Shown here: positions 6,160-19,826 of the stretch, piece by piece
Layout: every line of letters starts with the position of its first letter
Position numbering within the stretch: the first letter of the stretch is position 1
Assembly (NCBI RefSeq): GCF_025210595.1
Contig: NZ_JAOARH010000003.1
Coordinates: 1-32,239 of the forward strand
Source of the DNA: Winogradskyella sp.
GTDB lineage: Bacteria > Bacteroidota > Bacteroidia > Flavobacteriales > Flavobacteriaceae
Direction: 5' to 3'
Length of the DNA: 32,239 bases
The notes under the pieces: generated by a model
Told to the model about the DNA's origin: nothing
The model's input: only the letters and a program-made list of their open reading frames with translations
Databases searched by the model: none
Made by a program: the position numbers and the translations under genes

Positions 6160-7452
6160 ATGAAATATCTTCCAATAGACCGCAACCTCTTTATAAAAAA
6201 TCGTAAAAATTTTATGGCTCAAATGAAGCCAAATAGTTTAGCGGTATTTAACTCTAATGATATATATCCTGTTAGTGCAGATAGTACTTTACCATTTGCC
6301 CAGCATCGTGATATTTTTTATCTCAGTGGTGTAGATCAGGAAGAAAGTATTTTAGTAATGTTTCCAGATTCTCCAAAAGAAAAACATCGTGAAATACTAT
6401 TCCTAAAAGAAACCAATGAACATATTGCTGTTTGGGAAGGTGAAAAATTAACTAAGGAAGCTGCTTTAAAAACCTCTGGTATAAAAACCGTGTATTGGTT
6501 ACAGGACATGGAAAAAGTGATGTTTGAATTGATGACGCAATGCGATACCGTTTACATTAATACCAACGAACATTACAGAGCTAGTGTAGAAACCGAAACA
6601 CGCGAAGATCGTTTTACCAAATGGTTAAAAGATAAATATCCTGCACATGCTGTTGCCAAGAGTAATCCTATTTTACAACGCTTACGTTCTGTTAAAGACC
6701 CAATAGAATTAGATATTATGCAAAAAGCCTGTGATATTACCGAGAGAGGCTTTAGACGTGTGCTTAATTTTGTAAAACCAGACGTTTGGGAATATAATAT
6801 TGAAGCAGAGTTTATGCACGAGTTTTTAAATAACCGTTCTAAAGGTTTTGCTTATACACCAATTATTGCAGCAGGAAATAATGCTAATGTCTTACATTAT
6901 ATTGAAAACAACCAACAATGTAAAGCTGGCGATTTAATTTTAATGGATGTTGGTGCAGAATACTCCAATTACTCTAGCGATATGACGCGTACCATACCTG
7001 TTTCTGGGAGATTTACCGACAGACAAAAAGCGGTTTATAATGCGGTTAATAGAGTAAAAGATGAAGCTACAAAAATGTTAGTTCCAGGAACGCTTTGGGA
7101 ACAATACCATGTTGAAGTTGGTAAGCTAATGACTTCTGAACTTTTAGGCTTAGGACTAATTGATAAAGCCGATGTACAAAACGAAAACCCAGATTGGCCA
7201 GCGTATAAGAAATACTTTATGCATGGTACATCGCATCATATTGGTTTAGACACTCACGATTATGGTTTATTACACGAACCAATGCAAGCTAATATGGTCT
7301 TTACGGTAGAACCTGGTATTTATATCCCAGACGAAGGTTTTGGAATCCGTTTAGAAGATGATGTAGTAATACAAGAAACTGGCGAACCGTTTAACTTAAT
7401 GCGTAATATACCAATTGAAGTGGAAGAGATTGAGGATTTGATGAATTCTTAA
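6160..7452 (+). CDS. pepP: Xaa-Pro aminopeptidase (peptidase family M24B)
   Basis: Cytoplasmic metallopeptidase that removes an N-terminal residue preceding proline. The 430-residue protein has the aminopeptidase P N-terminal domain (about 1-150, including FYLSGVDQEE) and a C-terminal pita-bread domain. All five metal ligands can be read: Asp in LMDVGAEY (about 262), Asp in SSDMTRTIP (about 273), His in HGTSHHIGLDTHD (about 354), Glu in VEPGIYIPDEG (about 383) and Glu in IRLEDDVVI (about 398). Length matches the family. It is a stand-alone gene, probably chromosomal backbone, and marks the left flank of the defence island. Start ATG at 6160 is the first in frame and gives the expected N-terminus. 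Confidence 0.93.
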   Translation: MKYLPIDRNLFIKNRKNFMAQMKPNSLAVFNSNDIYPVSADSTLPFAQHRDIFYLSGVDQEESILVMFPDSPKEKHREILFLKETNEHIAVWEGEKLTKEAALKTSGIKTVYWLQDMEKVMFELMTQCDTVYINTNEHYRASVETETREDRFTKWLKDKYPAHAVAKSNPILQRLRSVKDPIELDIMQKACDITERGFRRVLNFVKPDVWEYNIEAEFMHEFLNNRSKGFAYTPIIAAGNNANVLHYIENNQQCKAGDLILMDVGAEYSNYSSDMTRTIPVSGRFTDRQKAVYNAVNRVKDEATKMLVPGTLWEQYHVEVGKLMTSELLGLGLIDKADVQNENPDWPAYKKYFMHGTSHHIGLDTHDYGLLHEPMQANMVFTVEPGIYIPDEGFGIRLEDDVVIQETGEPFNLMRNIPIEVEEIEDLMNS

Positions 7453-7456
7453 ATTA

Positions 7457-7476
7457 TTTTACGGTTTAACGTAAAA
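7457..7476 (+). terminator. Perfect inverted repeat after pepP
   Basis: TTTTACG (7457-7463), six-base loop, CGTAAAA (7470-7476) begins 4 bases after the pepP stop. It is a symmetric 7-bp stem with two G-C pairs and no long T run, so either a weak terminator or an operator-like site. A shorter stem AGCG/CGCT (7492-7506) followed by TTAATTTT lies just downstream. The remaining bases to 7659 are AT-rich; I did not find a full TAnnTTTG promoter for the defence operon. Confidence 0.35.
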
Positions 7477-7659
7477 GAAATCTATAAAAGCAGCGTAATT
7501 TTCGCTTTAATTTTGAGGTCGTCAAAATAATTATATGATAAAAGTCACTTTGTAGTTTGTGAGCTTTTTCTATCTTTAATATCCCTTAGAATTAATTCTT
7601 GTTTTCTTATTTTATAACAAACATTTCTGTTTTTATTTAACAGATAATGAAAGGTGTCT

Positions 7660-9216
7660 ATGCATAATAAAATTCCAATTATAGATTTATTCGCAGGGCC
7701 TGGCGGTCTTGGTGAAGGTTTCATGTCCATAAAAGATAATGAAGGTAAATCTATTTTCGATATAAAACTCTCCATAGAAAAGGATATAAATGCTCACAAA
7801 ACACTGACATTAAGAAGTTTTTTTAGGCAATTTGTTAAAGACAATAAAAAGGTGCCTGAAGACTATTATAATGCATTGAGGGTGTCTGATATTTCAAAAA
7901 GAGAAATCCTTATTGAGAAAATGTTAGATAAATATGAGGAGGGAACTATTGCAAGAAACGAAGCGAAATTAATTGAGTTAGGGTCTAAAAAATGGCCTGC
8001 CAAAAGGGTAGATAGAATAATTAAAGACCAATTAGGAAATGTTAATAATTGGGTTTTAATTGGTGGGCCTCCATGCCAAGCCTATTCTAATGCAGGAAGA
8101 TCTAGGGTTGGAGGTATAAAAAAAGAAGATCATAGAGTTTATTTATATGAAGAATATCTTAGAATTATAAAAAGGCATAAACCTTCTGTTTTTGTAATGG
8201 AAAACGTAAAGGGTCTATTATCCGCTAAAGTTGACGGTGAGAAGGTCTTTGATTGGATGAAAAGGGATTTGAAAGTTGGCAATAACTATAGTATTCATTC
8301 TTTAGTTAAACCCATTGAAAAAGATTCAGATTTTCTAATTAAGTCTGAAAAATTTGGAGTACCTCAAATGAGGCATAGAGTTATCTTATTAGGTATAAGA
8401 AAGGATTACAAACATTTAGGTGATTATTTAAAGGAGAAAAAGGAAGTCACCTTAAAATCTGTGATAGGAAATTTGCCAGCTGTCAGAAGTGGATTAAATA
8501 GAAGGTTTACGAGTTATCATGATAACGAAGTTTATAAAAATGGTAAACCAAAAAGACTATATCAAAATCTTGTCGATTCAGATTCTGCTTGGTTAAAAGA
8601 AATGTCACAAAACATTAAGCAAATTAAGAAATGGGGAGAATTAGAGTTAAACGGATTGTCTTCAGGACCAAAGAATATTGAAGAAGGTACAGGAGCTGAG
8701 TTTATTAAGGCCAATAATGTTATTGCTAGAAATCATGTACTTAAGGATTGGTTTGTTGACAAAAGACTGAAAGGAATGATTAATCATCAATCTCGATCAC
8801 ATTTAACCCAAGATTTAATGCGTTATTTATTTGCTGGGCTCTACGTAGAAAAACACGAGAGATTTCCTCGTTTAAAAGATTATGCAAGTCATAGTAAAGA
8901 TTTATTACCAGATCATGCAAGTGCGGAATCAGGAAAATTTGCGGACCGTTTTAGGGTACAGGTTCCAAATAAACCAGCAACAACAGTAACCAGCCATATT
9001 TCAAAAGATGGACACTATTTTATTCACTATGACACCTCTCAATGTCGTTCTTTAACAGTTAGAGAGGCAGCACGAATTCAAACATTCCCAGATAACTACT
9101 TGTTTAGAGGAAGTAGAACAGTTCAATATCATCAGGTTGGTAATGCAGTGCCACCTTATTTGGCATTTCAAATATCAGAAATAGTAGTAAATATTTTAAA
9201 TCAAAAAAATGGTTAA
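7660..9216 (+). CDS. mzaA: DNA C5-cytosine methyltransferase, Mza system
   Basis: Transfers methyl from S-adenosylmethionine to C5 of cytosine. About 518 residues from ATG 7660 (a GTG two codons earlier at 7654 is possible; ATG has AAAGG upstream). All main motifs are present in canonical order: I DLFAGPGGLGEGF (about 9-21), IV GGPPCQAYSN with catalytic Cys139, VI MENVKG, VIII QMRHRVILLGIR, IX RSLTVREAARIQTFPDNY and X YHQVGNAVPP. About 120 extra residues, highly charged, sit between motifs I and IV. It opens the operon and its stop overlaps the next start by one base (TAATG). Within a defence operon it probably marks host DNA for the downstream ATPases and nucleases. The letter A follows the published gene order as I recall it; the enzyme family is certain. 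Confidence 0.93.
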   Translation: MHNKIPIIDLFAGPGGLGEGFMSIKDNEGKSIFDIKLSIEKDINAHKTLTLRSFFRQFVKDNKKVPEDYYNALRVSDISKREILIEKMLDKYEEGTIARNEAKLIELGSKKWPAKRVDRIIKDQLGNVNNWVLIGGPPCQAYSNAGRSRVGGIKKEDHRVYLYEEYLRIIKRHKPSVFVMENVKGLLSAKVDGEKVFDWMKRDLKVGNNYSIHSLVKPIEKDSDFLIKSEKFGVPQMRHRVILLGIRKDYKHLGDYLKEKKEVTLKSVIGNLPAVRSGLNRRFTSYHDNEVYKNGKPKRLYQNLVDSDSAWLKEMSQNIKQIKKWGELELNGLSSGPKNIEEGTGAEFIKANNVIARNHVLKDWFVDKRLKGMINHQSRSHLTQDLMRYLFAGLYVEKHERFPRLKDYASHSKDLLPDHASAESGKFADRFRVQVPNKPATTVTSHISKDGHYFIHYDTSQCRSLTVREAARIQTFPDNYLFRGSRTVQYHQVGNAVPPYLAFQISEIVVNILNQKNG

Positions 9217-10700
9217 TGGATATAGATTTTAATAATATATCACAAGAAGAAACACCACCTGAAGCAAGTGCGATGATTAATACTTTTCGCGCCTTTGGCT
9301 ATAATTTAAGAACTGCTATTGCTGATATAATTGATAATAGTATTTCAGCAAAGGCTGAAAATATTTGGATAGAATACAAATGGGATGGAGCGGATTCATG
9401 GGTAACAATTACCGATGATGGATTAGGAATGAAACTTGACGAATTAAAATTAGCGATGACACCTGGAAGCCGTGATCCAAAAGACGATCGTGAAGAACAT
9501 GATCTAGGTAGATTTGGACTTGGTTTAAAAACGTCATCCTTCTCTCAGTGCAAGAGATTGACAGTTGCCACTAAAAGTGAAGGTTTTAAGGTTATTAATC
9601 GTTGTTGGGATCTAGATTATGTAAACAAAACAAAGAAATGGTCCCTATTAGACTATCTGTCGGACAAATCACTTGCAAATAAGTTAGAGGAATTAAACTC
9701 TGGCACAACTGTGATATGGGAAAAGATGGATCGACTTGTTGGGAATACCAACAAGAACAACGAAGCCGCTATGAATGTTTTTCTTGATGAATTCGCTTCA
9801 GTCGAAGATCATTTAAGCCTTGTTTTCCATAGATATATGGAACAAAAAAGGGTTACACTTTATTTAAATGGCAATAAGTTAGAACCATGGGACCCTTTTA
9901 TGAAGCAATCTGATGGAGGTCAATTTGTAGCACATGAATCCTTAGACAAAGGTCAAGTGAGTGTTAAATGTTACGTTTTACCTCATATTTCTAAATTAAC
10001 AATTGAAGAAAGGAAAAAGGCAAAGACTGAAGAATGGTATAAACTTCAAGGATTTTATATATATCGTCAAAACCGATTACTCTTACATGGCGATTGGCTT
10101 GGTTTGTTCTCAAAAAATGAACATTTTAAAAACGCAAGAATATTAATTGATATTCCAAATAAATTAGACCACGATTGGAAAATAGATATAAAAAAAGCGA
10201 CTGCCACACCTTCCTTTAATGTTAGAAAAGATCTCATAAGATTAGGTAAGCTAACTCGATCTAAGGCAGGTTCAATTCATAAGTTTAGAGGCAACCAGAT
10301 TATGTTAGATGACACTATCACTTCATTTGATTTTCAACCTATTTGGAAAGCAAGAAAGACAAGAGATGAATCGAGACATTATTATATAAATCAGGACCAT
10401 CCTATTATTAAGAATTTACTAGAAAAGGAAACTATTTCTAAGAAAGAAATGAAGTCTGTTTTAAGACTTATTGGAGAAACAACACCTGTTGAGTCAATTA
10501 TTCAGTTTCACAGTGAAGAACCCGAAAGTCATGAATTAAGAGATTCAGCCAAGGAATTGGACCAAGGAACAATCGAAGTTGCAACATTAATGTATAAATC
10601 TCTTAAGTCTCAAGGATTAAATAATCAAATTGCAATTAAACAAATTTTTAACATAGAACCCTTTAATCAATTCCCAGAATTGGAACAATACTTTAATTAA
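9216..10700 (+). CDS. mzaB: MORC/MutL-type GHKL ATPase, Mza system
   Basis: A 494-residue ATPase of the GHKL fold (HATPase_c_3 type), the prokaryotic relatives of eukaryotic MORC proteins. Seen: N-box AIADIIDNSI with Asn41, G1 box DDGLGM (67-72), G2 box GRFGLGLKTSS (98-108), then an S5-like domain with the lysine-containing segment around residues 300-345. The position of the general base, usually Glu four residues before the Asn, is Asp37, which I believe is common in this prokaryotic group. Known MORC/MutL proteins clamp on DNA upon ATP binding; here it is inferred to be a DNA-bound switch for the nuclease components. It overlaps the upstream and downstream genes by one base each (TAATG both times), so translation is coupled. 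Confidence 0.92.
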   Translation: MDIDFNNISQEETPPEASAMINTFRAFGYNLRTAIADIIDNSISAKAENIWIEYKWDGADSWVTITDDGLGMKLDELKLAMTPGSRDPKDDREEHDLGRFGLGLKTSSFSQCKRLTVATKSEGFKVINRCWDLDYVNKTKKWSLLDYLSDKSLANKLEELNSGTTVIWEKMDRLVGNTNKNNEAAMNVFLDEFASVEDHLSLVFHRYMEQKRVTLYLNGNKLEPWDPFMKQSDGGQFVAHESLDKGQVSVKCYVLPHISKLTIEERKKAKTEEWYKLQGFYIYRQNRLLLHGDWLGLFSKNEHFKNARILIDIPNKLDHDWKIDIKKATATPSFNVRKDLIRLGKLTRSKAGSIHKFRGNQIMLDDTITSFDFQPIWKARKTRDESRHYYINQDHPIIKNLLEKETISKKEMKSVLRLIGETTPVESIIQFHSEEPESHELRDSAKELDQGTIEVATLMYKSLKSQGLNNQIAIKQIFNIEPFNQFPELEQYFN

Positions 10701-13450
10701 TGAATCAATTTGAAAGTGCAAGAAATATTGCTCATGTTCTTCTTGCAAAATACGATAAGGAACAATTAAATACAGATATTCTTCAAAAGGAGATTAACAA
10801 TGTGTTTAAGATGAATGGATTTGATAAGGTTGATAGAGATGATTTAATCATCCAGTTGGAAGCTGATTTAAATATATATTCAGGTAAAGCTACAGAATTA
10901 GTAGAAAAGGACGTAAAACCCTGGTTAAGTGATATCAAAGCATCTGTTAAGTGGCAATTATGGGATCGTTATAAATTATATCTAAGAGCTAAAGATGGAT
11001 CTTTCCCAGTAGATAGTGTTGATGATTTAACTGACAAAATCTTAGATAAGTGTGTAAATCCTAAAATAAAAGGAAGTTGGGATAGAAGAGGAATGGTTGT
11101 TGGTAATGTGCAATCAGGTAAAACGGCTAACTATACTGGATTAATCAATAAAGCAACAGACGCTGGTTATAAGCTTATAATAGTTATCGCAGGTATTCAT
11201 AACTCTCTAAGATCTCAAACTCAATTAAGAGTTGATGAAGGATATATTGGTAGAAAGAGTTCAGACTTTATAATGCGCCAGAGAAATGTAAAAGTAGGTG
11301 TTGGAAAATATGCATGTGATACGGAAATATATTCTTATACTTCGTCTGATAACAAAGGTGATTTTAATCGATCAATTGCTAGTAGAATAAATGTTCCTAT
11401 TGGAGGTAAAAGCCCTACTGTTCTGGTTATCAAAAAGAATAAAAGTATTTTAGAAAACTTAATCCTTTGGCTTAATCAATTTGCTTCTGACGTTAATGGT
11501 GAGCGAAAATTAATGGATGTTCCAATGTTAGTGATTGATGATGAAGCAGATAATGCATCTGTAAATTCTGGAACCCAATACGATGTAAGAACAATTAACC
11601 GCTTAATTAGAACCTTATTGAATCTATTCAATCAAAACACTTTTATAGGATATACTGCCACACCTTATGCTAATTTATATATTCCATCTTCTTGGAGTGA
11701 GGACCTTGAAACGTATGTTAAAGATGTTAAGTTAAAAGTGGGAGAAGATTTGTTCCCAAGAGATTTCATTGTAAATATTCCACCACCTTCAAACTATTTA
11801 GGAGCAGCTCAAGTTTTTGGATTTGAGAATGAAAATACAGGAGAAGCAGCTGAAGGTTTGAATATAATTAGGTTTGCTGAAGATCAGGAACCGTGGATTC
11901 CAAAAAAAATCAATAAACATAATGCAGAAGATTTACCAGATGATGTTCCTGTAACTTTAAAAAAGGCAATCAAAGCATTTATTTTAACGAACGCTATTCG
12001 AAGGTTGAGAGGACATGGAAATAAACATTCCTCTATGTTGGTCCATGTTGCGTTGAGAGTTTTATGGATTGATAGAATTGCTTGGATAGTAAATGAAATA
12101 TTAAGAGGATATAAAAATCAAATTAAATCAGGTCAAGGAAACATCTTATATGACCTTGAAGAGATGTTCTATAATGACTATATGCCTACAACTAAAGATG
12201 TTAAGGACAATATCGCTTATAACGATCCAAAAATAAAGACGCATACTTGGGAAGAAGTAAAGTCGGAATTAATTGCTGCCGTAACTAAAATCGAAGTACG
12301 TTCAGTACATGGTTTGAAGAAAACAAGCGCACTCGAATATCATAGAATTGAAGAGATTGATTATGAGGCTCACAAAAAAGTAGGGCTTTCAGTAATTGCA
12401 GTAGGTGGTAACAAGTTAGCTCGAGGAATTACACTTGAGGGGCTATCCGTCAGTTATTATTTAAGAACAACTAGAATGTATGATTCACTTATGCAAATGG
12501 GTAGATGGTTTGGGTATAGACCTGGTTATGCGGACTTGTGCAGATTATACACTACATCTCAATTGATTAATTGGTATAGGCATGTAACAATGGCGACAGA
12601 GGAGATGCGTAACGATTTTGATGAAATGGCAGCAAATAATATGGTGCCTAAAGATTATCAATTGAAGGTCCGTACACACCCAGGTATGTTAATGGTGACA
12701 TCGTTAACAAAAATGAGGGAACATGAGAAGATTCAGGTTGGCTTTTCTGGTAAGCTAATTCAAACATATACTTTTAATAAGGCTGATGTAAATTCTAATT
12801 ATAAAGTTTTTAAGTATTTGCTTTCACGTCTTAATACAACACCTCAAAAAATTAAAACTGGACAGAATAAGGTCAATGCATTACTTTGGAATAAGGTTGA
12901 CTCTGTTAAGATTTTAGATTTCATTTCAAGTTTCAAAACACCAATACATCGCTTGGATATTATGAAATCTTACATTGATAAACAAAATAATGAAGGGCTT
13001 CTTCAAAAATGGTCATTAGCAGTTTGGGTAAATTCTAGAAATGATAGTAAAAAAGAAAAATGGAAATGGTCTGGAGGAGAATTTAATGCTGGATTACCTA
13101 CTCGATCTTTCGTAGGCAATGAAACTAAACAATTATCTGTGAAAGGAAGCAAAAATGCAATATTAGGTAAGGAACATAGGATGGTTGATTTGGGACTAAA
13201 GATCGGAGAGAAACCAAGTGAAGATGATTTAAAAGAAATTAGGAAAAAGTTGCAACAACCTTTGATAGTGATTTTGCCAATTGATTCTTCTGATTATAGT
13301 GGGATAGAAAATAATTTACCAATTATCGGTCTAGGTATAATTTTTCCAATAATTGAATCAGAGAAGAAATTTGAATATGCGGCTAGACCGTTAAATCCTG
13401 ATTTTGAAGAAGAACCTCAAGAAAGTGATGATAAATCAGACGATGAATAA
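10700..13450 (+). CDS. mzaC: Z1-domain helicase-like ATPase, Mza system
   Basis: A 916-residue protein with a superfamily-2-like P-loop core around the Z1 domain. Walker A is GNVQSGKT (135-142), Walker B is VIDDEAD (278-284), motif III is GYTATPYA (318-324), and a motif V/VI-like segment reads GGNKLARGITLEG followed by LMQMGRWFGYRPGY (about 575-610). Residues 1-125 are helical and could contact partners; the last 20 residues are very acidic. Families of this kind occur almost only in restriction or defence operons beside MORC ATPases. Expected role: nucleic-acid-dependent ATPase or translocase connecting recognition to cleavage (inference). The stop overlaps the next start in ATGAATAA. Confidence 0.93.
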   Translation: MNQFESARNIAHVLLAKYDKEQLNTDILQKEINNVFKMNGFDKVDRDDLIIQLEADLNIYSGKATELVEKDVKPWLSDIKASVKWQLWDRYKLYLRAKDGSFPVDSVDDLTDKILDKCVNPKIKGSWDRRGMVVGNVQSGKTANYTGLINKATDAGYKLIIVIAGIHNSLRSQTQLRVDEGYIGRKSSDFIMRQRNVKVGVGKYACDTEIYSYTSSDNKGDFNRSIASRINVPIGGKSPTVLVIKKNKSILENLILWLNQFASDVNGERKLMDVPMLVIDDEADNASVNSGTQYDVRTINRLIRTLLNLFNQNTFIGYTATPYANLYIPSSWSEDLETYVKDVKLKVGEDLFPRDFIVNIPPPSNYLGAAQVFGFENENTGEAAEGLNIIRFAEDQEPWIPKKINKHNAEDLPDDVPVTLKKAIKAFILTNAIRRLRGHGNKHSSMLVHVALRVLWIDRIAWIVNEILRGYKNQIKSGQGNILYDLEEMFYNDYMPTTKDVKDNIAYNDPKIKTHTWEEVKSELIAAVTKIEVRSVHGLKKTSALEYHRIEEIDYEAHKKVGLSVIAVGGNKLARGITLEGLSVSYYLRTTRMYDSLMQMGRWFGYRPGYADLCRLYTTSQLINWYRHVTMATEEMRNDFDEMAANNMVPKDYQLKVRTHPGMLMVTSLTKMREHEKIQVGFSGKLIQTYTFNKADVNSNYKVFKYLLSRLNTTPQKIKTGQNKVNALLWNKVDSVKILDFISSFKTPIHRLDIMKSYIDKQNNEGLLQKWSLAVWVNSRNDSKKEKWKWSGGEFNAGLPTRSFVGNETKQLSVKGSKNAILGKEHRMVDLGLKIGEKPSEDDLKEIRKKLQQPLIVILPIDSSDYSGIENNLPIIGLGIIFPIIESEKKFEYAARPLNPDFEEEPQESDDKSDDE

Positions 13451-14426
13451 TATTAAAAACATCTGGATTAATCAAGAATTGAATTCGGGTTCATTCACAA
13501 TACGTGAGCATTTTTTTGTTAATGAAAGTCTTAATTGTTTTGTAGGTCGAATTGGTGCGTCAAATGCAAAAATGTTTCAAATTGAATTAGATAAAGGAAC
13601 GCAAATTCATAAGAACTATTTGAAGCGTTTTCATGGAGTTGAGATTAGAGTTTTAGATTCTAAAAAAGATAGGAAAGACATTACCATTATACTTTCAGAC
13701 AATGATTTATTGGATGTATTTATACTTTTTCTTGAAGATTTGATTAGAAGCCTTAAAACTACAAATGATGAAAATGATATTCCATTAGTCCTAAATGAAA
13801 AAGTTGAATATTGGAGAAAACTATTTGCAAAGATAAAAGGTGAATTGCTTTCCAAAGAGAGACAAAGAGGTCTTTATGGAGAGTTAACATTTTTAAACTC
13901 TCTATTGAACCAATCTAACGATTTTGTTCAGACAATTTCAACTTGGACGGGACCTGACGGTTCAAATCAAGATTTTAGTAATGGACTATCAGCAGTTGAA
14001 GTTAAAAGTTCTAAGGCAACCAAACCAACAGTTAATATTGCTAGCGAGTTACAATTAGATTGGACAATCTTAGATAACCTTTATTTACATGTTATTCACA
14101 TAGATGAGTTAAATAATGATTCAAATACTTTAGAAAAATTAATTGAAGATATCAAATTAAAAATAGTAAAGCATCCTAATTTACTACGTTTATTTGAAGA
14201 AAAACTAAATCTAGTAGGAATTCCTTTTGGAGAAGAGAAGCATTATAATGAAATAGGATTTGTTATTCGTTCTCAAAGAGCATATAGAGTCCAAAATGGT
14301 TTTCCTGTGTTGATTAATGATACGATTAGCAATGACGCTATTCATAATGTAAAGTATCAAATAGATCTCACGGCTCTAGAGCCTTTTGAAGCTAAGCTCG
14401 AAACTGTTATAAGTAAAATGATATGA
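13443..14426 (+). CDS. mzaD: DUF4420 PD-(D/E)XK nuclease, Mza system
   Basis: A 327-residue protein of the DUF4420 / PD-(D/E)XK motif family. The nuclease core is visible: Glu147 in RGLYGELTFL, Asp177 in GSNQDFS, and Glu186-Val-Lys188 in AVEVKSS, all placed as in an active PD-(D/E)XK site. The N-terminal 120 residues are beta-rich and may bind DNA or partners. I chose ATG 13443, which overlaps the preceding stop by 8 bases, over ATG 13428 and a TTG at 13404, because it gives the compact overlap seen at every other junction; 13428 remains possible. Its stop overlaps the next start as ATGA. Likely one of the cutting components. Confidence 0.88.
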   Translation: MNNIKNIWINQELNSGSFTIREHFFVNESLNCFVGRIGASNAKMFQIELDKGTQIHKNYLKRFHGVEIRVLDSKKDRKDITIILSDNDLLDVFILFLEDLIRSLKTTNDENDIPLVLNEKVEYWRKLFAKIKGELLSKERQRGLYGELTFLNSLLNQSNDFVQTISTWTGPDGSNQDFSNGLSAVEVKSSKATKPTVNIASELQLDWTILDNLYLHVIHIDELNNDSNTLEKLIEDIKLKIVKHPNLLRLFEEKLNLVGIPFGEEKHYNEIGFVIRSQRAYRVQNGFPVLINDTISNDAIHNVKYQIDLTALEPFEAKLETVISKMI

Positions 14427-16789
14427 GTAATACAAAAACTCAACATTCTGATTTCGAATTAGAACAATACACACAAGAAGTTTTTCATGAAGTAAATTCA
14501 TTAGCCTATTCCGATGAAAATGGCGCTTCTAAAGAGGACAAGTTCACTGAATATATAATGGAGATTTTGGCGGAAGCTGGAGAAACAGAAGGCATAAGAT
14601 TATGTCCATATGTTAAAGAGAACCGTTTCGAAAATATTGATCTTAAAATTAATGGTTATTCCATTGAAGATGGGTTTGAAAGTGTAGACCTTTTTATTAC
14701 TCATTATTCAGACACAAATGAAATTTACTTTTTAAGAAAGCCTGAGTTTGACGGATTATTAAAATGGTCAACTAAATTTTTAAATGCAGCATTAAAAGGG
14801 CATTTAAATGAAATTGAGCCTTCGACTGAAGCACATGGTTTAGCTAGTCTTATGAAAAAGCACAATAAGGATTTTATTAGAATAAATATCTTTGTAGTAT
14901 CTAATGGCAATATTCCTTTTGACGCACCTAAAACTAAAATTAAAGGATTCGATGATCTTTTAGTGAATGTTCATATATGGGACTTAGAGAGATTACATCG
15001 TTTATCTCAATCAAAATATAATAGAGAGCCCATTGAAATTGATTTTAAAGAAACTTTAGGTGTTACTATTCCTTGTTTAGAAATGCCATCAAAGAATGAT
15101 CTTTACGAATGTTATTTAGCAATTGTTTCAGGAGATACCCTTGCTGCTTTATACAAGAATTATGGTACAAGATTATTAGAAAGTAATGTGAGAGCATTTT
15201 TGCAACAAACCGGAAAAGTTAATCGTGGTATTAGAGATACGATTCGCTATAATCCAGAAATGTTTTTACCTTATAATAATGGTTTAGCTACTACAGCAAT
15301 AGATGTGAAAACTGAACAAATTCAAGGTCAAAATTTTATTACAAGTGTTAAAGATTTTCAGATCGTAAACGGTGGGCAAACAACGGCCTCTCTTTTTCAT
15401 ACATTCAAAAAATTCAAATCAGACCTTTCCGAAGTCTTCGTTCAAATGAAATTGACAGTTATCAAAGATGAAGAAAAAAAGAACGAAATGGTACCGAATA
15501 TTTCTCGCTATGCTAATAGTCAAAATAAGGTTTCAGAGCTTGATTTAAGTTCTAATAATGCTTTCTTAATAAAACTTGAAGAATTATCAAGAACAACTTA
15601 TGCCATTAATCCAGATGATAGAAACAAACAATCTATTTGGTTTTTTGAAAGAGTTAAAGGGCAATATAAAGAGTCATTAAATAAAGAACCTACTGCTGGC
15701 AAACAAAGAGCATTTAAATTGAAATATCCAACCTCTCAGAAGATATTAAAATCTGAAGTAGCTAAGTACATGAATATTTATAATAGAATACCATATCATG
15801 TTTCTAAGGGAGCACAGAAGAATTACAATATTTACCTTAGAGAAGCTGAAAAAGAATATAAAAAAAAGAAACCTACTCGTATAATGTGGGAAGACATAGT
15901 TGCTAATGCAATACTGTTTAAGGCAACTGATAAACTTTTTGGAAGAAAGAATCAAGATCCGATAGGTGATACAAATATTAAATCCCACACAGTTGCTTAC
16001 ACTTTATCTCTTTTGCATGAATTAACCGATGGAAAAATTAATTTAGGAAAAATATGGAATAAGCAAGTTATAGATGAATCATTCCAAATAGAATTAAAAA
16101 AGGGCTTAATCTATGTATATAGGTTTTTTACATCATTAAATGTTTTACTGATTAGTGAAGCAGCAAAATCGGAAAAGACTTGGATCAAGTTATTAGAACA
16201 AAAAAAATGCCCTTTTAATCTTGAGATATTAAAACCATATATCGTAGATGAAAAGGAATACAAACAAAGATATGAGGAGAATGAAGACGATAGTGCAGAA
16301 ATACGTAAATATGATAATTTAAAGCGTATTTCAGATTTAGGCCTTAGATTCTGGGATGGCCTATTCAAGTATAATATTAGAACTAATATATTATCAAAGT
16401 ATGAAGATAATATGTTGTCAAGCATTCGGAGAAAAATGAAGTTTTCTGGAAATTTTACAGAAAATGAAATTTCAGTTGGAGTTAGAATTATTAAGAAGTT
16501 AGAACAATTAAAAGTCAATTTTAAAGATATTACAATTTTAAGTCAACTTGATGAAGGTGAAAGAATTGATCCATCCGCATTGTACAATAGACTTCTTTTA
16601 ATTGATAGTTCTATGTGGAGTCAGATAATTGATTTAGGAGAGCAAACGGGTTCACTTACTTTTAAAGAATTAAGTGTAATTAAAACCGTTAGACAAAAGC
16701 TTAAAAGAAAAGAAAACATTGACCTGAAAAGAATGAAAATAGTTGATGAGTCTTTAAAAAAGTTGAAGAAGTTTGGAATTAAAGTATAA
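14423..16789 (+). CDS. mzaE: AIPR-family protein, Mza system
   Basis: A 788-residue protein of the AIPR (abortive infection phage resistance) family. The family signature is clear: FLPYNNGLATTA (about 281-292) and QIVNGGQTTASLF (about 312-324). The N-terminal 200 residues look like a degenerate nuclease fold: an acidic strand VDLFITHY (about 88-95) is followed by a strand (YFLRK) with no ExK, so this domain is probably not catalytic as I read it. The C-terminal half is helical and Lys-rich (about 480-788). AIPR proteins are linked to phage resistance but their biochemistry is poorly known. It is coupled to the nuclease gene by ATGA and followed 26 bases later by the HNH gene. Confidence 0.9.
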   Translation: MSNTKTQHSDFELEQYTQEVFHEVNSLAYSDENGASKEDKFTEYIMEILAEAGETEGIRLCPYVKENRFENIDLKINGYSIEDGFESVDLFITHYSDTNEIYFLRKPEFDGLLKWSTKFLNAALKGHLNEIEPSTEAHGLASLMKKHNKDFIRINIFVVSNGNIPFDAPKTKIKGFDDLLVNVHIWDLERLHRLSQSKYNREPIEIDFKETLGVTIPCLEMPSKNDLYECYLAIVSGDTLAALYKNYGTRLLESNVRAFLQQTGKVNRGIRDTIRYNPEMFLPYNNGLATTAIDVKTEQIQGQNFITSVKDFQIVNGGQTTASLFHTFKKFKSDLSEVFVQMKLTVIKDEEKKNEMVPNISRYANSQNKVSELDLSSNNAFLIKLEELSRTTYAINPDDRNKQSIWFFERVKGQYKESLNKEPTAGKQRAFKLKYPTSQKILKSEVAKYMNIYNRIPYHVSKGAQKNYNIYLREAEKEYKKKKPTRIMWEDIVANAILFKATDKLFGRKNQDPIGDTNIKSHTVAYTLSLLHELTDGKINLGKIWNKQVIDESFQIELKKGLIYVYRFFTSLNVLLISEAAKSEKTWIKLLEQKKCPFNLEILKPYIVDEKEYKQRYEENEDDSAEIRKYDNLKRISDLGLRFWDGLFKYNIRTNILSKYEDNMLSSIRRKMKFSGNFTENEISVGVRIIKKLEQLKVNFKDITILSQLDEGERIDPSALYNRLLLIDSSMWSQIIDLGEQTGSLTFKELSVIKTVRQKLKRKENIDLKRMKIVDESLKKLKKFGIKV

Positions 16790-16814
16790 TCCAATGTCTA
16801 AAAATTAAATTATT

Positions 16815-17558
16815 ATGGCAGAACGTTCAAAAGAATTAATTCAAGTTGGTTATTATTTATCTAAATATGGGAAACAATATCCACCAAAAAGATTAGGCAC
16901 GGATAAATGGAATGAAGCTTATAGAATGTTTTATGACACCTTAAATGGAGATAGAGCTGTATTAGAATTTGAGCACAGCTTAAAAAATTCAAGAGATGGT
17001 TTCGATAGTTATTTTCCTGAAACCAACAGAGAGGGTTGGAAAGATGAAGACGGTAATCCAGCTAACTTAACTGGCTTTTCTGCTGATGTTTACAGTGAAT
17101 TTATCAATAAAGATGAAATTCAAATTTGGTCTATAATTAAGTCTTATTTAGATATTGATTATAAAATAAAGCCTGTTATATTTAATGATTTAATTGCTGA
17201 AGATAATGCTGGGAGTGATTCGAATAAAACCAGAACTGAGGGAGGAATAAAAGTTAGAATATCCAAAACTATAGAGAGAAGTCCAAAATTAAGACAAGAG
17301 GCGTTGAATATACATGGATATAAATGTCAAGTTTGTAATTTTGATTTTGAATTAACTTATGGTGATTGGGGAAAGGAATTTGCAGAAGTACATCATGTAA
17401 AACCATTATCAGAATTAAAAGGCGAGAAATATGAAACTGATCCTTATAAAGATTTAGCCGTTTTATGTGCAAACTGTCACAGAATGCTGCATAGAAAGAA
17501 AGGTATAACTCTTACTCTAGAAGAATTAAGAAAAAAATTATATAAAATCACTTCGTAA
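16815..17558 (+). CDS. HNH endonuclease with unrecognised N-terminal half
   Basis: A 247-residue protein. The C-terminal third is a standard zinc-bound HNH nuclease: Cys171-x2-Cys174, catalytic EVHHVKPLS (His193/His194), LCANCHRMLH (Cys218, Asn220, Cys221, His226). Residues 1-140 contain aromatic and charged stretches (ELIQVGYYLSKYG, KWNEAYRMFYDTLNG, SYFPETNREGW) that I cannot assign; by analogy with other restriction HNH enzymes it may recognise a sequence or modified base. It is 25 bases behind the AIPR gene on the same strand, so it is the sixth gene of the operon and the natural candidate for a restriction partner of the cytosine methyltransferase (inference). Its 3' end overlaps the convergent adenine methylase by 11 bases. 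Confidence 0.88.
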   Translation: MAERSKELIQVGYYLSKYGKQYPPKRLGTDKWNEAYRMFYDTLNGDRAVLEFEHSLKNSRDGFDSYFPETNREGWKDEDGNPANLTGFSADVYSEFINKDEIQIWSIIKSYLDIDYKIKPVIFNDLIAEDNAGSDSNKTRTEGGIKVRISKTIERSPKLRQEALNIHGYKCQVCNFDFELTYGDWGKEFAEVHHVKPLSELKGEKYETDPYKDLAVLCANCHRMLHRKKGITLTLEELRKKLYKITS

Positions 17559-18252
17559 ACACAAACAACCGCTCCACACTTTCTTTAGTGGATAGGTTTT
17601 TAGCATGCCAGGAAAAGGTAGTTTTAGCCCCTTTTTCCCAAATGCATTTAAAGTCCTCAGGTGCATTGTATTCGCTTATAAAGACTTGGTGACCCGCTTT
17701 ACTTTGTTGTCTGCACCATTCCCAAAAGACATCATGGTTAAACTTATCTCTGTATTTAGTCGTAGATGCATAAGGAGGATCGCAGTAGATGATACTGTTT
17801 TCTGGAATCTCTAAATCGAGATAGGATTTGCAAGACAATTGCACTCCTTCTAAATTGGGCACTTGTTTGGTAATGTTTCGGTAATGCTCAGACCAATAAT
17901 CACGTTTCCCTTGTTTATCGCGTCGGTAACCTGCAAACCATTTGCCGCCAAACGAGTTAAACCCAACATAAGCAACCAAATGCTTTGGATACTCGCTTTG
18001 GTTATATTTTATGTGTCGGTATTCTTCTTCACTTACGGATTTTGGCGGATCCCAATTCTCGTAAATCAAGGCTTGCCACATTGCCATTAACTCTTGGTGC
18101 TGATCGTTAGCAATACGAATACCGTCAACCTTATCTATCATATTCATACCACCAGCAAATGGTTCTAAATAAACTTGATCGACTTGTCTATCCTTTAAAA
18201 TTATTGGTAAAAGATCTTTAGCAAAGCGTGCTTTGCTTCCCATATACTTCAT
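17548..18252 (-). CDS. D12-class N6-adenine DNA methyltransferase (Dam-like)
   Basis: Methylates adenine N6 in DNA. The 234-residue protein begins with the family hallmark MKYMGSKARFAKDLLP, then the SAM-binding YLEPFAGGMN (28-37), IANDQHQELM (47-56), the GFNSFGGKWFAGYRRD segment (97-112) and the catalytic DPPY (158-161). It is compact, as in phage or mobile-element versions. Base composition looks different from the defence operon: three 60-base stretches counted by hand are 42-45% G+C, versus 27%, 32% and 42% for three in the Z1 gene. It starts 23 bases after the stop of the serine hydrolase on the same strand and could be co-transcribed with it. No matching adenine-specific nuclease is visible, so it may be an orphan, a second modification arm of the island, or a relic of another element. 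Confidence 0.9.
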   Translation of the reverse strand: MKYMGSKARFAKDLLPIILKDRQVDQVYLEPFAGGMNMIDKVDGIRIANDQHQELMAMWQALIYENWDPPKSVSEEEYRHIKYNQSEYPKHLVAYVGFNSFGGKWFAGYRRDKQGKRDYWSEHYRNITKQVPNLEGVQLSCKSYLDLEIPENSIIYCDPPYASTTKYRDKFNHDVFWEWCRQQSKAGHQVFISEYNAPEDFKCIWEKGAKTTFSWHAKNLSTKESVERLFVFTK

Positions 18253-18275
18253 TGAATTCTCTGTTTATTCTTTGA

Positions 18276-19826
18276 TTAATGGGTCTTTTTAAGTTCTAAA
18301 TCATGAAAATCGAAACTGAAATCTGTGATTGGTGCAATGTATTTCATTGTGGCAGAAACTGCTTTTTCATTTTCATTAAAAGTGAATTGTACAAATACAT
18401 CTGCATCGTAACTTCTATCGTTCCACTTGGCAACAAAAGTTGTAGCATTGTACGGTAGTAATTCACCAAACAATCTTGGCGAACGCACACATTTGATACT
18501 GTATTTTTTTCCGTCGTGAGAAATAACAATATCACCAAACCAATCGTCCGTATAAGTACCAACAATTTGTTCTGGTGCTGGAATGGTTAAATGCATTTTT
18601 GCTTTTTCTACTTTAGCAAAAACCTCAGCTTTTAAGCTGTCATTATATTTTAAATAATCTGCATTACGTTTCCCTAAACGTTGCAACCAAGCTCTATCTT
18701 CATAACCTAAATACGAATCTTTAATAGTATTGGTAATTGTACTAAATGCAGAGCCATTCATTTGGTTGGTTAGTACCACAATAGCCAAATCTAAATCTGG
18801 AATCATAGTAAACTGTGTTACGGTTCCTATCAATCCTCCTGTATGATACACTTGTTTGTATCCTCCTTTTACATCAGTAACAAACCAACCTAAACCATAG
18901 CCTTTAAAGTTAGAGTCGTAAGTGTCGTTAGCTCTCACTTTTAACGGAGTTTGCAATTGCCAAAGCTCATGAAATTGGGCTTCACTTAACAAACGTTCTC
19001 CGCTTTCGGTTACAGCATCGTTCATTAAAAATTTTGCCCATGCCATCATATCATGAACATTACTCACAATACCACCTGCTGCATTTGCAGTTTCGCTCCA
19101 ATCGTGTGGAATCTGAATTACTTTGCCTTCCGCTCTAGTATGCGCTTCAATAATATTCGATTTGTCGGTAACACGATTATAAGATGCCTTAGAATTTTTC
19201 ATCCCAACAGGTTTCATAATTTTAGTTTCAATAAAATCTTCCCAAGATAATCCACTTACACGTTTCAAAACTTCACCAGCTATGATAAACATGTTGTTAT
19301 TGTAGGCGAATTTGCTTCGGAAAGAAGTTTCAGGCTCTAAATATTTTACCTTATCAATTATATCCTGAACTGAAAAATCATTGCCTTCAGGAAAGAACAT
19401 TAAGTCTCCTGCTCCTAATCCCATTCCGCTTCTATGAGTTACTAAATCTCTAACAGTAAAATGCTCAGTAACCCAAGCATCGTGTAGTTGAAATTCTGGT
19501 ATATGTTTTCTTACAGGATCATCCCAATTAAGTTTCCCGTCATCGACCATCATTGCCAACGCAAAACAGGTAAACCCTTTGCTGTTAGAAGCAACACCAA
19601 CTAAAGTGTTTGAATTCATGTCTTTTTTACTGGTTAAAGAACGTACTCCATAGCCTTTAGCATACACTTCTTTACCGTCTTTATAAACACCAACAGAAAT
19701 ACCTGGTACATCAAAAGTTGTAAGCGTTTCTTTAATCAATTTATCAATTTGAGCTTCTTTCAATTGAGCAGACAAGCTTATGCTACTTAAAAATAAAGCT
19801 AAGATCAGTAGTCGTTTTAAAAACAT
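18276..19826 (-). CDS. Serine hydrolase, class C beta-lactamase-like, with C-terminal DUF3471-like domain
   Basis: A 516-residue exported hydrolase of the beta-lactamase/penicillin-binding fold (family S12). Signal peptide about 1-20 (ending SLSAQ). Active-site motifs: Ser80-x-x-Lys83 in ASNSKGF, the Tyr-x-Asn element in FAYNNNMF (about 175), and HTGGLIG near residue 330 in the KTG position. The last about 110 residues, after a break near 400, form a beta-rich domain that often follows such hydrolases. Members are usually esterases, D-aminopeptidases or peptide hydrolases rather than antibiotic-resistance enzymes; the substrate cannot be told. It is divergent from the alpha/beta hydrolase gene and has a TAnnTTTG box at 19855-19862. 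Confidence 0.9.
   Translation of the reverse strand: MFLKRLLILALFLSSISLSAQLKEAQIDKLIKETLTTFDVPGISVGVYKDGKEVYAKGYGVRSLTSKKDMNSNTLVGVASNSKGFTCFALAMMVDDGKLNWDDPVRKHIPEFQLHDAWVTEHFTVRDLVTHRSGMGLGAGDLMFFPEGNDFSVQDIIDKVKYLEPETSFRSKFAYNNNMFIIAGEVLKRVSGLSWEDFIETKIMKPVGMKNSKASYNRVTDKSNIIEAHTRAEGKVIQIPHDWSETANAAGGIVSNVHDMMAWAKFLMNDAVTESGERLLSEAQFHELWQLQTPLKVRANDTYDSNFKGYGLGWFVTDVKGGYKQVYHTGGLIGTVTQFTMIPDLDLAIVVLTNQMNGSAFSTITNTIKDSYLGYEDRAWLQRLGKRNADYLKYNDSLKAEVFAKVEKAKMHLTIPAPEQIVGTYTDDWFGDIVISHDGKKYSIKCVRSPRLFGELLPYNATTFVAKWNDRSYDADVFVQFTFNENEKAVSATMKYIAPITDFSFDFHDLELKKTH

Follow-up and report, generated by a model that had tools for sequence, protein, structure and literature searches.

What kind of system is encoded at positions 7660-16789 of a 32,239-nucleotide stretch of Winogradskyella sp. 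DNA (the window, at its full length)? An earlier note on this DNA took it to be a complete Mza antiviral operon. On the evidence collected here, it is probably an intact DNA-defence operon of five, perhaps six, genes. By sequence, the operon is related to Mza but is not a complete Mza system, because a C5-cytosine methyltransferase stands in place of the sigma factor MzaA. As the note had described, five intact genes follow one another on the + strand with successive overlaps of 1, 1, 8 and 4 bases, and profile searches matched each of the five families that it had named (Table 1).

Table 1. Features of the locus and the evidence for each (aa, amino acids; coordinates refer to the window).
Feature	Coordinates	Strand	Evidence
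Aminopeptidase P (pepP), left flank, boundary of variable interval	6160..7452	+	matches in 40/41 genus genomes, one weak
Gene 1, C5-cytosine DNA methyltransferase, 518 aa	7660..9216	+	PF00145 172 bits; TIGR00675 155 bits, cut-off 101
MORC-family GHKL ATPase, MzaB-like, 494 aa	9216..10700	+	PF13589 103 bits; PADLOC MzaB 344 bits; NCBIfam MzaB 401 bits, cut-off 850
MzaC-like protein, PF10593 (Z1)	10700..13450	+	PF10593 262 bits; PADLOC MzaC 528 bits; NCBIfam MzaC 626 bits, cut-off 1500; motifs
Region within the MzaC-like gene	12767..13279	+	codon-block comparison of eight pairs; windowed identity
DUF4420 PD-(D/E)XK predicted nuclease, MzaD-like, 327 aa	13443..14426	+	PF14390 206 bits; PADLOC MzaD 66 bits; NCBIfam MzaD 118 bits, cut-off 420
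AIPR protein, MzaE-like, 788 aa	14423..16789	+	PF10592 290 bits; PF22879 127 bits; PADLOC MzaE 278 bits (residues 31-587); NCBIfam MzaE 370 bits (residues 13-591), cut-off 1050
HNH endonuclease, possible sixth gene	16815..17558	+	PF01844 38 bits
Dam-like N6-adenine methyltransferase	17548..18252	-	PF02086 50 bits
Serine hydrolase (beta-lactamase/AmpH-like), right flank, boundary of variable interval	18276..19826	-	

The Mza label is thus partly upheld. Homologues of MzaB, MzaC, MzaD and MzaE are present in the same order as in mzaABCDE, as recognized by PADLOC and NCBIfam models, but all four fall under the NCBIfam equivalog cut-offs. At its C-terminus, the MzaE-like AIPR protein extends about 200 residues past the part matched by the MzaE models. 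PMC9523054 names mzaA of the validated system as a sigma factor, not a methyltransferase. None of the four matches of the PADLOC MzaA model (683 positions) in this genome is on the operon contig (C82); two are insignificant, and the two significant ones are on C35 and C69. In 23 genomes that carry operons of this kind, no listed MzaA match is close to the operon; where match and operon share a contig, the smallest distance is approximately 74 kb (G527), but some operons of other genomes are on short contigs, where a neighboring MzaA could be cut off. Gene 1 occupies the MzaA position but is not MzaA. The motifs of this methyltransferase are intact, and it belongs to class A, one of two main classes that occupy this position in related loci.

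Conserved motifs are likewise retained in the proteins of the shared core. The MORC-family ATPase has the GHKL motifs and the GhXhhpXXRhl S5 motif, whose R287 is invariant in all 44 alignment rows; the MORC signature motif is at residues 279-289 (10050-10082). The SFII helicase motif of the operon reads DSLMQMGRWFG, which corresponds to the DThhQXuRhFG type with S replacing T. In the predicted nuclease, the alignment reveals conserved E, D and ExK residues.

How might these proteins act together? We propose that the operon probably marks the DNA of its own cell and attacks foreign DNA that is unmarked: the methyltransferase would apply the mark, and the remaining proteins would carry out the attack. 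A survey of related loci found a C5 methyltransferase in 42 of 46. Several observations weigh against this proposal. In addition to the sigma factor in the validated Mza system, four of the 46 loci (one a contig fragment) have no recognized methyltransferase. Also, the methyltransferase class switches at least nine times on a quick tree of the core, beside similar cores, which would be odd for a fixed cognate pair; between loci L009 and L019, for example, the methyltransferase is swapped while the other four proteins are 86-96% identical. Finally, no region of the core convincingly covaries with the target-recognition region of the methyltransferase (50 windows in each of two methyltransferase classes, uncorrected, with no window significant in both).

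Frequent exchange of the methyltransferase class and its absence from four loci could also mean that the core is an ordinary Mza system whose defence is independent of methylation, with the methyltransferase, often accompanied by Vsr, being only loosely attached to it as a passenger or as an anti-loss module. The five described Mza genes include no methyltransferase, and in five of the 42 loci that have one, it lies downstream or on the opposite strand. A passenger, however, should be lost more often than is observed. Moreover, among the 20 loci in which the methyltransferase directly adjoins the MORC gene, 13 show either a start/stop overlap between the two or no more than 30 bases separating them, and the same gene set occurs on an alphaproteobacterial plasmid. 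We regard a passenger as unlikely, although deserving of some weight.

The core might instead sense 5-methylcytosine, rather than its absence, and be activated by it. The solved structures closest by sequence to the MORC-family ATPase are those of eukaryotic MORC4 (E 3e-4) and MORC3 (E 4e-3), followed by MutL (E 7e-3); these E-values are weak. PMC2292703 suggests DNA methylation as an example of the signals to which MORC proteins respond. The HNH gene, which starts 25 bases past the AIPR gene, encodes a protein whose HNH half resembles that of 5-methylcytosine-specific restriction enzyme A (6ghc, E 7e-5). Activation by 5-methylcytosine would make the cell's own DNA a target, and no methyl-binding domain was found by Pfam in any of the five operon proteins (E<=0.01); we consider this reading very improbable. 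Membership of the HNH gene in the operon is itself uncertain; a remote homologue, without a Pfam HNH match, lies inside the operon in one of the 46 related loci (L116).

Another explanation, which may overlap with marking and attack, is that recognition of DNA triggers the AIPR protein to cause cell death or arrest. The AIPR family is named for abortive infection, and among rows of a 40-row alignment that have a residue at the position, the NNG residues are identical in 39 of 39 and the NGGQT residues in 38 of 38. Set against this, Pfam recognizes no nuclease or toxin domain in the protein, and no solved relative was found by sequence; we judge abortive infection to be rather improbable.

Some related loci carry additional genes. 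In L012 (5056-9962, Algoriphagus) and L015 (3990-8856, Christiangramia), a homologous gene pair lies between the methyltransferase and MORC genes, and encodes a protein of ~400 residues with a weak Glycos_transf_3 match and one of ~1220 residues with kinase-like and ORC/CDC6-like matches (Pfam on L015 only). In L136 (3348-6651), L010 (4637-8141) and the plasmid locus L146 (2117-5496), a large protein followed by a gene of ~370-430 codons is found near the methyltransferase. The large protein has two GHKL ATPase domains in L010 and is annotated as a sensor histidine kinase in L146. These genes may represent the two-component-like HEF_HK/Response_reg_2 pair of PMC8011034, that of L136 by position only. 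In L014 (3276-4777), the MORC gene is split into two open reading frames and no methyltransferase is recognized; this locus is perhaps a decayed copy or reflects a sequencing fault.

The operon lies in a variable interval between pepP and the serine hydrolase gene. Because homologues of the Dam-like gene occur in 21 of 36 such intervals of the genus, the window included, we judge this methyltransferase to be a resident of the interval that is outside the defence system. A branched-chain amino-acid transporter gene, present in 32 of the 36 intervals (one copy identified by Pfam), is missing from that of the window (17548-18276).

This locus provides an intact, methylase-bearing form of MORC operon, and from operons of this kind the eukaryotic MORC silencing proteins have been proposed to derive (Iyer et al., PMC2292703). 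With natural pairs such as L009/L019, the gene that determines the target can be sought directly. Also, a naming trap is corrected, in that gene 1 of such operons should not be called MzaA.

Among other known systems, the CglI and NgoAVII restriction systems differ in that their nuclease carries PLD and B3 domains, and no MORC or AIPR component is seen in the parts of their descriptions drawn on here. The operon agrees with the putative "Type II" system described in PMC9523054 in having an AIPR gene with an associated MORC gene, and its C5 methyltransferase in the MzaA position is also in keeping with that system. Type II is divided into II-A and II-B, and the likeness is to Type II as a whole; its putative transcriptional regulator, which is associated rather than core, has no counterpart among the genes at 6160-19826. 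The gene set likewise corresponds to the third type of MORC operon in PMC2292703, in which cytosine methylases and Vsr are frequent. Of the window genes scanned, none matched Vsr in profile searches, and an HNH gene lies downstream. The MORC protein with its signature motif, the SFII helicase with a DThhQXuRhFG-type motif and the E-D-ExK nuclease are shared, which supports the link to restriction-type prokaryotic MORC operons drawn in the earlier note.
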